From contig NZ_CP042239.1 in NCBI RefSeq assembly GCF_007833215.1, positions 1,302,001 to 1,366,000 on the forward strand: a stretch of DNA of 64,000 nt, in the 5' to 3' direction. Positions within the stretch are counted from its first letter, which is position 1. Each line of letters begins with the position of its first letter. Positions 3,746 through 61,300 of this stretch are shown one piece after another. The notes under the pieces are model-generated. The model did not search any database. It was not told the origin of the DNA and worked only from the letters and a program-made list of their open reading frames with translations. The stretch comes from Sphingomonas suaedae. Its GTDB lineage: Bacteria > Pseudomonadota > Alphaproteobacteria > Sphingomonadales > Sphingomonadaceae. The position numbers and the translations under genes were made by a program.

Positions 3746-3755
3746 GATCAAAGCC

Positions 3756-3835
3756 GTCGCCCCGGCGAAAGCTGGGGCCTCCAGCCGTGATCGTACGGCT
3801 TGCGGCATGAGATCCCAGCTTTCGCTGGGATGACG
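3756..3835 (+). repeat. Palindromic intergenic element, copy 1 (second copy lies inside uvrA)
   Basis: An 80-bp element of two hairpins: GCCCC-GGCGAAAGCT-GGGGC at the left and CCCAGCTTTCGCTGGG at the right, joined by a variable spacer. It begins 10 bp after the aldehyde dehydrogenase stop and ends just before the ferB ribosome site. A close copy in reverse orientation lies at 56532-56608 within uvrA; the outer about 28 bp on the left and about 24 bp on the right are nearly identical and the centre differs. It may stabilise the upstream mRNA or attenuate into ferB. Confidence 0.8.
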
Positions 3836-3856
3836 AACAGGGAAAGAGAGAAGTAG

Positions 3857-54353: not shown

Positions 54354-57300
54354 CTACTCCGCCGCCACCTCAACCCGCGCCTTCACCCCGCCCCGCTCCA
54401 GCAACGGCGCAAGATACTTCCCAGTGTAGCTGCGCGGTTCCTTCGCCACCTTTTCCGGCGTGCCTTCGGCGACGATCTCGCCGCCCTTGACGCCGCCTTC
54501 GGGGCCGAGGTCGAGAATCCAGTCGGCGGTCTTGATCACGTCGAGATTATGCTCGATCACCACCACGGTGTTGCCCTGTTCGACCAGCGCGTGGAGGACC
54601 TCCAGCAGCTTGCGGACGTCCTCGAAATGCAGGCCCGTCGTGGGTTCGTCGAGGATGTAGAGCGTCTGGCCGGTGGCGCGGCGGGAGAGTTCCTTGGCGA
54701 GCTTGACGCGCTGCGCCTCGCCGCCGGACAGGGTCGTGGCCTGTTGCCCGACCTTGATATAGCCGAGGCCCACCTCCGCGAGCATCGCCATCTTGTCGCG
54801 GATCGGGGGGACGGCCTTGAAGAACTCCACCGCATCCTCGACCGTCATGTCGAGCACGTCGGCGATGCTGCGCCCCTTGAACTTCACCTCCAGCGTCTCG
54901 CGGTTGTAGCGCTGGCCGTGGCATACGTCGCAGGTGACGTAGACGTCGGGGAGGAAGTGCATCTCGATCTTGAGCACGCCGTCGCCCTGGCACGCCTCGC
55001 ACCGGCCGCCCTTGACGTTGAAGCTGAACCGGCCGGGCTTGTAGCCGCGCGCCTGCGCCTCCGGTAGCCCGGCGAACCAGTCGCGGATGTTGGTGAAGGC
55101 GCCCGTGTAAGTGGCCGGGTTCGAGCGCGGGGTGCGGCCGATCGGCGACTGATCGATGTCGATCACCTTGTCGAGATGGTCGAGGCCGGTGATCTTCTCA
55201 TGCTTGCCGGCGAGGACGCGGGCGCCGTTGAGCGCGCGCGCGGCGGCGGCGTAGAGCGTGTCGATGGTGAAGCTCGACTTGCCCGATCCGGACACGCCGG
55301 TGATGCAGGTGAAGGTGCCGAGCGGGATGCTCGCGGTAACGCCGGTGAGGTTGTTGGCGGTGGCGTTGTGGACGGTGAGCTTCTTCCCATTGCCCTTGCG
55401 CCGCTTGTTCGGGACCGCGACTTCGCGGCGGCCGGAGAGATAGTCGGCGGTGACGCTGTCGGTGCTGGCGAGCACCTGTTCGAGCGTGCCCTGCGCCACG
55501 ACCTCGCCGCCATGCACGCCGGCGCCCGGCCCCATGTCGATGACATAGTCGGCGCTGCGGATCGCATCCTCGTCATGCTCGACCACCAGCACGGTGTTGC
55601 CGAGATCGCGCAGGCGACGCAGCGTGACGAGCAGCATGTCGTTGTCGCGCTGGTGCAGGCCGATGCTGGGCTCGTCGAGGACGTAGAGGACGCCGGAGAG
55701 GCCCGAGCCGATCTGCGACGCGAGGCGGATGCGCTGGCTCTCGCCGCCCGACAGCGTGCCGCTGGTGCGATCGAGGTTGAGATAATCGAGCCCGACATTG
55801 TTGAGGAAGCCGAGGCGTTCGTCGATTTCCTTGAGGATCGCGCGGGCGATTTCCTGCTGCTGCGGGGTGAGCGCGTCGGGCAGCGTCTTGAAGAAGGGGA
55901 CCGCGTCGGCGACCGACAGGCGGGTGACGCTGGAGATGTCGCGCATCGCCACCTTGACCGCCAGCGCCTCGGGCTTGAGGCGGGCGCCGTGGCAGGTTTC
56001 GCACGGGTGCGCGGCCTGGTACTTGCTCAGCTCTTCGCGCATCCACGCGCTTTCGGTCTGGAGCATCCGGCGGTTGAGGTTGCCGATGACGCCCTCGAAC
56101 GGCTTCTTCACGTCGTAGCTTTTGCGACCGTCGACGAAGGTGAGCGTGACCGGCTTGCCGCGGCTGCCGTGGAGGATGAGATAGTGGACCTCCTCGGGCA
56201 GGTCCTTCCACGGGGTGTCGAGGCTGAAGCCGAACTCGCGCGCGAGGCTGCCGAGGACTTGCATGTAATAGGGGCTGGGCGGGTTGGACTTGGCCCAGGG
56301 GACGACCGCGCCCTTCTTGATGCTGAGATCGTGGTTGGGGACGACGAGGTCTTCGTCGAAGATCTGCTTTTCGCCGAGGCCGTCGCATGCCGGGCAGGCG
56401 CCCTGCGGGGCGTTGAAGGAGAACAGGCGCGGCTCGATCTCGGCGATGGTGAAGCCGCTGACCGGACAGGCGAAGCGTTCGGAGAAGACGATGCGGTTGT
56501 CGGGGATGCCGGTGTTTTTCATGCCGCCCTTCGTCACCCCAGCGGAAGCTGGGGTCTCTGGCGGCATCGCGCCTTCGCTGGAGGCCCCAGCTTTCGCTGG
56601 GGCGACGTCGTGGGTGAACGCCTGTGGGGCTTCGCGAACCGCACTGCCCCTCTCCCCGACCCTCTCCCCTGAAGGGGAGAGGGAGCTTACCGTGGTATCC
56701 ACCAGGTCGACGTACGCCAGGCCATCCGCCAGTTTCAGCGCGGTTTCGAAGCTCTCCGCGAGCCGCGTGGCGATGTCGTCGCGGACGACGAGGCGGTCGA
56801 TCACCACCTCGATGTCGTGCTTGTACTTCTTGTCGAGCGCGGGGGCGTCCTCGATCAGCCAGGTTTCGCCATCGATGCGGACGCGCTGGAAGCCGGCCTT
56901 CTGCCATTCGGCCAGCTCCTTGCGATACTCGCCCTTGCGGCCGCGCACGACCGGGGCGAGCAGCAGCAGGCGCGTCCCCTCGGGCAGCGCGAGGACGCGG
57001 TCGACCATCTGGCTGACGGTCTGCGCGGCGATCGGCAGGCCGGTCGCGGGGCTGTAGGGGATGCCGATGCGCGCCCAGAGCAGGCGCATGTAATCATAGA
57101 TCTCGGTCACCGTCGCGACGGTCGAGCGCGGGTTGCGGCTGGTGGTCTTCTGCTCGATGCTGATCGCGGGCGAGAGGCCGTCGATATGCTCGACATCGGG
57201 CTTCTGCATCATCTCGAGGAACTGGCGCGCATAGGCGCTCAAGGACTCGACATAGCGGCGCTGCCCCTCGGCATAGATGGTGTCGAAGGCGAGGCTCGAC

Positions 57301-57416
57301 TTCCCCGAGCCTGACAGGCCGGTGATGACGGTCAGCGTATCGCGCGGAATGTCGATGTCCACGCCCTTGAGATTATGCTCGCGCGCGCCACGTACGGAAA
57401 TGTGAGTCAAAGCCAT
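54354..57416 (-). CDS. uvrA: UvrABC excinuclease subunit A with in-frame repeat insertion
   Basis: A 1020-residue UvrA, longer than the usual roughly 940-970. It has Walker [21 protein letters not shown] and [20 protein letters not shown], signature [21 protein letters not shown] and [18 protein letters not shown], and the zinc-binding cysteines ([39 protein letters not shown]). Residues about 244-296 ([15 protein letters not shown]... [11 protein letters not shown]...[11 protein letters not shown]) are encoded by two repeat elements and are absent from normal UvrA. The start [10 protein letters not shown] at 57416 has an SOS box 12 bp upstream. Confidence 0.96.
56532..56608 (-). repeat. Palindromic element copy 2, inside the uvrA coding frame
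   Basis: This is the reverse-orientation sister of the element at 3756-3835. On the minus strand it starts GTCGCCCCAGCGAAAGCTGG and ends CCCAGCTTCCGCTGGG plus GTGACG, with a spacer that differs from copy 1. It is read in frame in uvrA as about 26 residues rich in Ala, Pro and Ser. Its length does not shift the frame. Confidence 0.88.
56645..56687 (-). repeat. Second palindromic element inside uvrA
   Basis: On the minus strand CTCCCTCTCCCCTTCAGGGG and AGAGGGTCGGGGAGAGGGG make a hairpin of CCCTCTCCCC with GGGGAGAGGG. This GC-rich intergenic hairpin family is common in proteobacteria. Here it is read through as [13 protein letters not shown], about 13 residues before the first element's product. 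Confidence 0.75.
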
Positions 57417-58039: not shown

Positions 58040-58096
58040 GGGTGAAAGCGCTTTGCGGGGAAGGGGTTGGGGATTAGCGTAGCAGGAGGGGGAACG

Positions 58097-61000
58097 ATGC
58101 CAGTTACACAAGCACTTCAAGCCTTCGCACAGCGGATTCGCGACGTTCGGCGCGCAAATGCCGAGGTGCCGGAGACCGGGCTCGCGCCGGCATTTCAGGC
58201 ACTGATCGAGACGCTGTTGCCGTTGCTGCCTGCCGCACCCGCGCTGACCGTCGTGCCGGAGTTTCGCAATCCCGGCGTCGGACGTCCTGACATCGCGCTG
58301 GTTCGGCCGGGTGCCCCTGCCCGTGCATTCATCGAGCTGAAGGCCCCCGATCAGCCGGGCGACCCCACTCGCTGGAGAGGGCATAACAAGGCACAGTTTC
58401 AGCGGTTCGGCGAACTGCCGAGCTGGGGCATCAGCAATTTCAGCGAGTTCCGACTGTTCGAACGGGACGCGGAGGTCGGCTTCGCAATCGTCGTTCCCGC
58501 CCGTGCGCTGCGCCCCGATACGGCGGACGCGGAGGCGAACCGGCTGATCGCGAACGAAAATCCCGATGCGTTTCTGAACCTGCTGACCCGAGTCTGCGCA
58601 GCCGATGCGCCTGCCGCGCGCGATGCGGAGCATCTGGCGCAGTTGCTGGCCCATTCAGCGCGGCTGGTGCGCGGGATCGTGCAGGACCGGCTGGCCGAAC
58701 TCCACGCCGAGCAGAACGACCGGGCCGCGCTGATGCAGGTGCGGAAAGAATTTCGGGACGTGCTCTATGCCCACCCGGAGGCGGGCGGTTATTCCGCGAA
58801 TGATTTCGACACGCTGTTTTCCGCTGCGTTTGCCCAGACGCTGGCGTTCGGATTGCTGCTGGTGCGCGAAGGAACGGACGGGCCGGTCGATCACCGCGCG
58901 TGGGAACGGATGCCGGAGGAACATCCGCTGATGCGCACCGCGCTGCGCGTCCTTTCGATGGAAGAAGTGGTTCAGGACGTCGGCATCGGCTTCGATGTCA
59001 TGCTGGACACGGTGAACAGCTTCGCCGCGGAAATTCTGGCGATCCGGCCCGACGGGCGTGACCCGATCCTGTATTTCTACGAAGACTTTCTGGAGACGTT
59101 CGATCCGGCGGCGCGCGAGCGTTATGGCGTCTATTACACCCCGATCGAGGTGGTGCGGTACATGGCCGGGGCGCTCGACCGGGCGCTGCGCGAGAATCTG
59201 AACACGCAGGGGTTGCAAGACCCGAATGTCACGATCCTGGACCCGGCGACGGGGACCGGCACCTTCCTGTTGGGCATTGCCGAGCGGGTGCGCAACCAGG
59301 TGGAAGCCGCCAACGGGCCGGTCGAGGCGCGGATGGCGCTGCGCGATCTGGCGCGGCGGATGTTTGGGTTCGAGTTGCTGGTCGGCCCGTATGCGGTGGC
59401 GCATTACCGGTTGCACCATGCATTGCGGGCGCGGCGCGAGGGCGATGAGGGGGAACCGCTGGAGCTACCGCGGCTGGGCGTTTACCTGACCGATACGCTG
59501 GCGCAGCCGGGTGCGGCGGCACCGGCCGGTCCGCTGGGGTTCGTGTCGGACGGCATTGCGGATGAGCGGCACGCCGCCGACGAGGTGAAGGCGCGTGAGC
59601 CGATCCTGGCGATCATCGGCAATCCGCCGTACAAGCGGCTGGAGGAAGGCGAGAACGAAACGCTGGTCGGCCGCTGGATGGACGATCTGTGGGACGATTT
59701 GAAGCGGCCGGTGCGCGACGCGGGACAGGGCAACCAGCTCAATACCTTCCCCGAATTCTCGGTCGCCTTCTGGCGTTGGGCGATCTGGAAATTGTTCGAG
59801 GCCGAGAATGCGCCGCAGCGCGGGGTGATCGCGTTCATCACCAATCGCAAATTCCTGACCGGGTGGCCCTATGCTGGCCTGCGCAAGATGATGCGCGAGA
59901 AGTTCGACCGGATCGAGGTGATCGACCTGCGCGGCGATGTGCGCGCCGGGCCACGCGGCGACGTGGCGAGCGATCAGGGCGTATTCAATATCATGGTCGG
60001 CACCGCGATCACGCTGGCGATTGCGGATGGCAGCAAGGCCGAAGGCGAACTGGCGGAGGTCCGGTATTTCGATAGTTGGTCGGATGACCTTTTCTCGCGG
60101 CGAGCGAAGTTAGTGCGCCTCGCTGTCCATTCGGAAGCGGGGACTTTCGAAGCGGCCGAAGGCGTAGAAAACGATCTTCTGGAATCGTTTCGACCCTTAC
60201 CGTTTACTGATTTCAACGGCGTGCATCTCAAACAAGTATTTGCCTACACCCGAGGGGGCATTCAAACCAAACGTGACTCATTCATTTATGCTACATCCGC
60301 TCATGCGCTCACCGCACAGATTCGCCGGTTTTTAGCTGCTCCTCACGGCGAGGCACGCGCGATGTTTCACGATAGTCGCGATAAGAAGTCTGCCCAAGCC
60401 CGGCTCATCCCGTTCAATGAAACGAACATTCGGAGCGTCTCTTATCGGCCCTTGGATCACCGCGTGCTCTACAATCACTCCGCCTATGGCGATTTTCTGA
60501 GACCTGAACTTCAGCAAGTTTGGGGGCACAACAACGTCTGCCTTTACTCGCTAAAATCGAATACCGGTGCCGGCCCTGCCGTGTGGTGTCACGGCCTACT
60601 GCCTGATTACCACTCCATCAAAGGCAGCAATGGCGGCTACGCCTTCCCGCTCTACGACCGGCGCTCTGGCCCCGATGCCACCAACCTCAACCCGGCACTG
60701 ATCGAGGGACTTTCGCTCGCCTATGGTCGACCGGTCACTGCACCGGATGTGTTCGACGCGATCCTGTGCCTGTTGTCCGCCACCAGCTACACTCACCGCT
60801 TCGCCGAAGACCTGGAGGACACCTTCCCGCATGTCGCCTTTCCGGCGGACCATGAAGTGTTCACCCGCGCAGTGGCGATCGGCTGCGACATTCGCGAGAT
60901 CGAGACCTTTGCGCGTCTTCCTGAAATCCCGCAGGGGCTGTGCGCCATCGCGAGCGAGCCGACCGGCGCGGTCGCCAGCGGCGTGGCCGCCGGCTATGCC

Positions 61001-61300
61001 GATGGCGCGATCACGCTGTGCGAGAATGGCAGCGGCAGGATCACCGGCATCCCCGAACCCGTTTGGCGTTTTGCCGTGAGCGGTTATCGCGTGCTGCCGC
61101 GCTGGATCGAAGGGCGCGAAGGCGTTGCCGCCGATCTGGCGTTCGTCCGGGAGCTGCGCGATGTGGCGGCACGGATCGCCGCACTTCTCCACAGTTTCGA
61201 CGCAGCCGACCTTGTGCTGGCCGACACGCTGGCGGATAGTCTGACGCGTGAGGAACTGGGGCTGGACGATGCCGCCCCGGACCAAGATGAGGACGCATGA
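58097..61300 (+). CDS. Single-chain restriction-modification enzyme (PD-(D/E)XK nuclease + N6-adenine methylase + recognition domain)
   Basis: A 1067-residue protein. The N-terminus holds a PD-(D/E)XK-type nuclease (GRPDIALVRPGAPARAFIELKAP). The middle is a gamma-class N6-adenine methylase with motif I DPATGTGTFLLG and motif IV IIGNPPYKRL. After it the C-terminal part, about residues 660-840, should read the target. There is no helicase domain, unlike classical type ISP enzymes, so it resembles type IIG/ISP hybrids. The recognition segment (about 60070-60620) has lower GC than either side. MPVTQALQAF at 58097 follows AGGAGGGGG. The last 4 bp overlap a small partner gene. Confidence 0.88.
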   Translation: MPVTQALQAFAQRIRDVRRANAEVPETGLAPAFQALIETLLPLLPAAPALTVVPEFRNPGVGRPDIALVRPGAPARAFIELKAPDQPGDPTRWRGHNKAQFQRFGELPSWGISNFSEFRLFERDAEVGFAIVVPARALRPDTADAEANRLIANENPDAFLNLLTRVCAADAPAARDAEHLAQLLAHSARLVRGIVQDRLAELHAEQNDRAALMQVRKEFRDVLYAHPEAGGYSANDFDTLFSAAFAQTLAFGLLLVREGTDGPVDHRAWERMPEEHPLMRTALRVLSMEEVVQDVGIGFDVMLDTVNSFAAEILAIRPDGRDPILYFYEDFLETFDPAARERYGVYYTPIEVVRYMAGALDRALRENLNTQGLQDPNVTILDPATGTGTFLLGIAERVRNQVEAANGPVEARMALRDLARRMFGFELLVGPYAVAHYRLHHALRARREGDEGEPLELPRLGVYLTDTLAQPGAAAPAGPLGFVSDGIADERHAADEVKAREPILAIIGNPPYKRLEEGENETLVGRWMDDLWDDLKRPVRDAGQGNQLNTFPEFSVAFWRWAIWKLFEAENAPQRGVIAFITNRKFLTGWPYAGLRKMMREKFDRIEVIDLRGDVRAGPRGDVASDQGVFNIMVGTAITLAIADGSKAEGELAEVRYFDSWSDDLFSRRAKLVRLAVHSEAGTFEAAEGVENDLLESFRPLPFTDFNGVHLKQVFAYTRGGIQTKRDSFIYATSAHALTAQIRRFLAAPHGEARAMFHDSRDKKSAQARLIPFNETNIRSVSYRPLDHRVLYNHSAYGDFLRPELQQVWGHNNVCLYSLKSNTGAGPAVWCHGLLPDYHSIKGSNGGYAFPLYDRRSGPDATNLNPALIEGLSLAYGRPVTAPDVFDAILCLLSATSYTHRFAEDLEDTFPHVAFPADHEVFTRAVAIGCDIREIETFARLPEIPQGLCAIASEPTGAVASGVAAGYADGAITLCENGSGRITGIPEPVWRFAVSGYRVLPRWIEGREGVAADLAFVRELRDVAARIAALLHSFDAADLVLADTLADSLTREELGLDDAAPDQDEDA

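Follow-up and report, generated by a model that had tools for sequence, protein, structure and literature searches.

The uvrA gene of Sphingomonas suaedae carries, in frame and within one variable loop of its product, two palindromic repeats of different families, and most probably these are REP-like elements that spread in trans and are kept in coding DNA where they lie in frame within loops or linkers, with fast turnover. The case is clearly of a known kind, REPs in frame having been described in 2013, also from uvrA of other species, but its extent is unusual, with different families at the same sites of several core enzymes. The window, a stretch of 64,000 nucleotides of the chromosome, contains the following features:

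54354..57416, minus strand: uvrA, 1020 codons plus stop, frame complete
56499..56699, minus strand: variable UvrA loop, residues 240-305, placed by the solved UvrA 2r6f and domain comparison
56642..56689: element B, about 48 nt, residues 243-258, a single palindrome from another family, made up of the hairpin at 56660-56683 and its flank
56608..56641, minus strand: host core of the loop, residues 259-269, similar to the core in relatives without repeats
56532..56607: element A, 76 nt, residues 270-295, CGTC-tagged head-to-head palindrome pair, read in frame in uvrA
3755..3837: 80%-identical sister of element A in an intergenic region, arms 3755-3835

The product of uvrA matches model NF001503 over residues 4-1007 with 1572 bits (cut-off 1147), and at E <= 1e-100, where 43%-identical paralogues did come up in three relatives, the gene has no other match in the 4.15-Mb genome. 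The variable loop begins directly after the UvrB-interaction domain UvrA_inter (residues 132-239); its 66 residues (240-305) face a single residue of 2r6f, between chain residues 257 and 259, and the loop is probably flexible or disordered. The original prediction of two repeat elements in frame inside UvrA was borne out, since both are multi-copy and the frame is intact, and the intergenic sister that it placed at 3756-3835 is real. It had regarded residues about 244-296 as repeat-derived, which is true of 243-258 (B) and 270-295 (A) but not of residues 259-269. The latter resemble NRVKEAPQAF in a relative without repeat (L081) and, judged by this likeness, are host sequence. The repeat DNA on either side is apparently translated into UvrA and tolerated there. 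Beside uvrA, on the plus strand at 58067-61300 of the window, lies a frame of 1077 codons with an NPPY motif, whose putative product is a DNA methylase or restriction protein of the single-chain kind.

Element A consists of two units (56532-56558 and 56581-56607), each with an 8-bp stem and a 4-nt loop, GCCCCAGC-GAAA-GCTGGGGC and ACCCCAGC-TTCC-GCTGGGGT. Its inverted arms (56532-56563 and 56576-56607) are 84% complementary, the fold scores z -6.9 against shuffled sequences (0 of 200 as good), and each unit bears the tag CGTC at its outer end, reading inward. At stem position 1 the pair is A-T in one arm and G-C in the other, at position 2 it is C-G in both, and the tails, compared with the short unpaired tail near CCA of CGTC-1 REPs, read mostly CTC and in some cases CTCCA. 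The element is multi-copy in its own genome, mostly as head-to-head dimers. Its core occurs at 24 exact places, while at up to two mismatches the count (145) is hardly above that of the control (127). For element B the fold is less distinct (z -2.3, 2 of 200 shuffles as good), and neither a GTAG nor a CGTC tag is found beside the hairpin within 56642-56689. The hairpin nevertheless occurs at 131 places with up to two mismatches, versus 9 for the reversed control. Among 77 exact places listed, 60 make up 30 close pairs 73-146 nt apart, 20 of them spaced by 84 or 85 nt, so that uvrA carries half of the usual B unit. The 221-nt uvrA stretch as a whole gave at least 96 aligned pieces in the genome (itself and both strands counted), corresponding to at least about 40 places, with 40 of 98 first-look candidates scored. 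All 13 Rfam matches to the stretch fell under the gathering scores, eight of them being miRNA models.

In REPIN/RAYT systems, the unit is an inverted pair of REPs, and the genome has a RAYT (Y1_Tnp) gene with the repeat at its flanks; RAYTs also feature in the 2013 survey (PMC3733652). Element A resembles them in being such a pair and differs in that Y1_Tnp is missing here, with no such gene in the S. suaedae genome. Sixteen of the 151 genomes of the genus do contain Y1_Tnp, and at all eight loci fetched from relatives none of the repeat families A-E described below lies within about 1.5 kb of it. A REPIN mobilised by a RAYT was rejected on both counts. Four of these genomes (G006, G118, G063 and G138; L249-L252) have Y1_Tnp matches of 142-144 bits in short frames without A-E nearby, which by their size are IS200-like.

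Closest to element A are the CGTC REPs of alphaproteobacteria defined by Di Nocera et al. in 2013 and described in that survey as lacking a dedicated transposase (PMC3733652). Element A shares with them the tag, the 8-bp stem, the 4-nt loop and the head-to-head pairing. It lacks, however, the A-T pair at stem position 2, whereas in CGTC-1 stems the first two positions are 'almost invariably' A and T, complementary to each other across the stem (PMC3733652), and we therefore call it CGTC-tagged and REP-like rather than a settled CGTC-1 member; the main reading is independent of this membership. Element B lacks even the tag. The same survey reported REPs within genes, many of them in repair genes including uvrA of O. 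terrae and Thioalkalivibrio, as well as in E. litoralis and S. alaskensis genes for tRNA ligases, and proposed that they may be tolerated in linkers or loops (PMC3733652). REPs in genes of one functional class were said to occupy different sites there, with the exception of recB of Xanthomonas (PMC3733652), whereas here one loop houses several families across a genus. The palindromic elements of Rickettsia (RPEs), originally put forward as the known precedent, are one precedent beside others such as the REPs in coding genes (PMC3733652). Like the present repeats, RPEs lie in frame within genes for conserved proteins and comprise several families (PMC2229807, PMC10969869), yet they measure 105-146 bp and are specific to Rickettsia (PMC2229807), whereas the two repeats here are 76 and about 48 nt long and belong to a Sphingomonas genome of 4.15 Mb. 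RPE-6 and RPE-4 have been equated with CGTC repeats (PMC3733652), and element A may thus be akin to RPEs. In the texts retrieved by our literature search, among them RepRanger 2025 (PMC12306157), neither the occupation of a single loop by several families throughout a genus nor a REP in uvrA of Sphingomonas is described, with the qualification that figures and supplement of the 2013 survey (PMC3733652) may list single cases.

A uvrA gene is present in 143 of the 151 genomes of the genus, S. suaedae included. We read 130 uvrA loci (30 in a first set and 100 of 111 further places), and 127 yielded a readable loop with both anchors in one frame. The remaining three are L156, which has a plain short loop, L133 (G146), where the frame breaks after an element A pair in the loop, and L165 (G083) with a frame break at or near the loop; either break may be a sequencing error or a real loss. 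All six named relatives at 85-89% identity belong to Sphingomonas, and one of them (L169) has a loop identical to that of L011.

Repeats of at least four families reside in 33 of the 127 loops: A in five, B in 11, C in ten, and D together with E in eight, the S. suaedae loop appearing under both A and B. The family labels were assigned in the present analysis; 36 loops contained a family motif or an 8-bp hairpin, three were dropped (L011 and L012 with half a motif of C, L029 with an imperfect B), and E was merged into D. The original prediction had named as evidence against itself a loop of unrelated DNA shared by the relatives. The loop is indeed variable, and 94 of the 127 are without repeat, yet the repeats are real, multi-copy and different among relatives. 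None of the 71 loops of up to 39 residues contains a repeat, the shortest repeat-bearing loop has 60 residues, and the repeats lie upstream or downstream of the loop core, flank it or replace it. In 29 complete uvrA genes (that of S. suaedae and 28 relatives, L002-L030 without L016, which the start-codon rule missed), all 42 family motifs fall inside the loop, which makes up 7% of the length, and none in the other 81 kb; hairpins of at least 9 bp number 26 in the loop and two outside, both in GC-rich stretches. Multiple copies of their repeats were found in the host genomes G132 (B with nested F), G054 (C) and G047 (D). For E in G079 at least one further copy was found among the matches listed, and for the B variant of L016 in G011 none beyond itself among the matches listed. 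Element F comprises two hairpins within an outer stem and sits in B arms of uvrA, RNase R and MutL genes (L005, L024, L304, L422); the composite of F in B occurs at no fewer than two further places in G132 among the matches listed.

Among 67 readable UvrA loops from named organisms (80 loci, 13 without anchor), motifs of A, B or C are found in Blastomonas, Erythrobacter, Sphingorhabdus and Sphingobium, and similar hairpins in Sphingomonas Root720, Devosia and Rhodoplanes. Eight of the 67 passed the automatic test, and L212 was set aside as an effect of composition. With Rhodoplanes (L218) and Devosia (L199), palindromes in the UvrA loop extend outside Sphingomonadales.

On a tree built from the flanks of the loop, the presence of repeats requires 22 changes compared with a mean of 29.1 after shuffling (0 of 500 shuffles as low) and is thus clustered. 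The starred branches (40 of 124 inner branches) force 12 of these presence changes, and for the individual families, leaving out the S. suaedae row with A and B, they force four (A), six (B), nine (C) and six (D) changes. Families B, C and A are scattered on the tree like shuffled labels. In the starred trio that includes S. suaedae, L002 has A alone and L003 has nothing. Some of the changes may be losses rather than insertions. Within UvrA, A is read in one frame in five of five cases, the plus arm of B in six of six and that of C in eight of eight. For C, whose frames are all open, the four genes counted agree in the frame of the plus arm; outside UvrA, A and B are read in frames other than those used there, with a mixture in GlyS. 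True insertions must therefore be fewer than the changes on the tree, and the constant frames argue that part of the spread is due to inheritance, to the exchange of alleles or to entry at a fixed point.

A genome-wide check for other in-frame copies, proposed along with the original prediction, covered 70 repeat loci of S. suaedae (38 plus 31 plus uvrA) and revealed such copies in nine genes for conserved proteins: UvrA, GlyS, IleRS, ValRS, MutL, RNase R, CarA, MurD and a lipoyl-bearing acyltransferase. Two of these are DNA repair proteins and three tRNA ligases. Four loci stood out by the coding-score rule alone (L048, L053, L067, L405), and L056, L063, L377 and L379 were added by protein-family matches. 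Copies in upstream extensions of frames were counted as intergenic, the count of nine excludes L391, L399 and other open frames, and in one fetched locus (L064) the script found no motif. The copies in CarA, the acyltransferase and MutL fall between Pfam domains. When 30 relatives each were inspected, a family motif was present at the same site in 17 of 26 readable GlyS, 11 of 26 RNase R, 7 of 27 CarA and 17 of 25 MutL loci (five of the 30 MutL loci had no anchor). These are automatic motif counts for genes picked because S. suaedae has a copy there and do not represent a share of the whole proteome. In all four genes, different families occupy the same site among relatives, as exemplified by GlyS with B in S. 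suaedae, A in G026 and nothing in G110. A special status of uvrA is not supported, and selection on UvrA alone was dropped as the main reading, because the pattern recurs in GlyS, RNase R, CarA and MutL. In the GlyS genes of G054, G043 and G090 and in MutL of G090, the matches run out where a contig ends close to the repeat site, which would be expected of repeats that break assemblies.

The repeated use of the same sites could also mean that the repeat-encoded loop, or the hairpin in DNA or RNA, is useful, for instance by tuning UvrA or its mRNA, and that repair and tRNA-ligase genes are preferred for this reason. With two of nine genes in repair and three encoding tRNA ligases, our set agrees with the bias towards repair genes in the 2013 survey (PMC3733652), but large multidomain enzymes also have more linkers to offer. 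The right arm of element A differs between the uvrA genes of S. suaedae and L002 by a paired change that preserves the stem, which counts in favour of a function, but such a change can arise via conversion by another copy and fits that origin. A useful repeat is moreover difficult to reconcile with 94 of 127 loops of the genus being repeat-free by the assigned labels and with families of different peptides and frames sharing one loop. We regard a selected function as unlikely.

Slightly less probable again is a bias of insertion, in which the sites are preferred targets, marked by a short word such as CGTC or by an existing repeat, and tolerance plays the lesser part. Several families keep to one frame within a given gene, which speaks for such a bias, as does the nesting of element F in B arms. 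In GlyS (L264, L267, L272) and UvrA (L023), element A starts at a CGTC that the comparable empty alleles also have (L273 and L274 for GlyS, L095 for UvrA). Fifteen intergenic A sites were compared with two near relatives; most had diverged or been refilled, the alignment of L033 was unusable, and at the four clean empty sites (L031, L036, L039, L041) no CGTC was seen. The coding sites hint at CGTC as a possible entry target of A, but the four clean intergenic sites speak against it, and a target word alone fails to explain the absence of motifs outside the loop (0 of 42 in the rest of uvrA). At one of the intergenic copies of A (L031, at about 4129.4 kb of the S. suaedae genome), CTGTGATC is present on both sides of the element and once in two relatives; extra bases surround the pair, and the arrangement may be a target duplication of 8 bp. 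That the loop simply varies in length and forms local palindromes by chance or slippage, without repeats, would suit its variable length and the many repeat-free relatives but is highly improbable, given that the same palindromes recur at tens of places in S. suaedae and in the three relatives tested.

We thus return to tolerated REP-like elements. Elements A, the head-to-head CGTC-tagged pair, and B, a single arm of a second family, would both be REP-like palindromic insertions, and such palindromic elements would move through sphingomonad genomes in trans. This route of spread is inferred here, as is the purging of most insertions elsewhere in genes, while in-frame copies in a flexible surface loop or an interdomain linker would be tolerated and translated. 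Different families would accordingly have entered the UvrA loop after the UvrB-interaction domain, been lost from it and entered it anew, and GlyS, RNase R, CarA and MutL appear to have sites that behave in the same way. A repeat already in place may offer other copies a spot to land or a partner for conversion. A more far-reaching proposal, which we advance only tentatively and consider rather doubtful, is that a small number of loops and linkers in sphingomonad core enzymes (UvrA, MutL, tRNA ligases, RNase R and CarA) are standing docks. Repeats of unrelated families would arrive there, displace each other and pass from strain to strain because the resident repeat attracts or templates the next. 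If this were true, proteins would gain fast-changing, repeat-encoded linkers.

The 2013 survey doubted an accidental entry of REPs into repair genes (PMC3733652). In a genus that offers many species, repeat-bearing as well as empty alleles and several families at one site, this doubt becomes testable, as tolerance, target bias and selection give different predictions. In practical terms, alignments and assemblies can break at repeat-bearing sites. For the biology of these organisms, the repeats point to a steady route from non-coding DNA of the mobile type to protein sequence, in bacteria other than Rickettsia.
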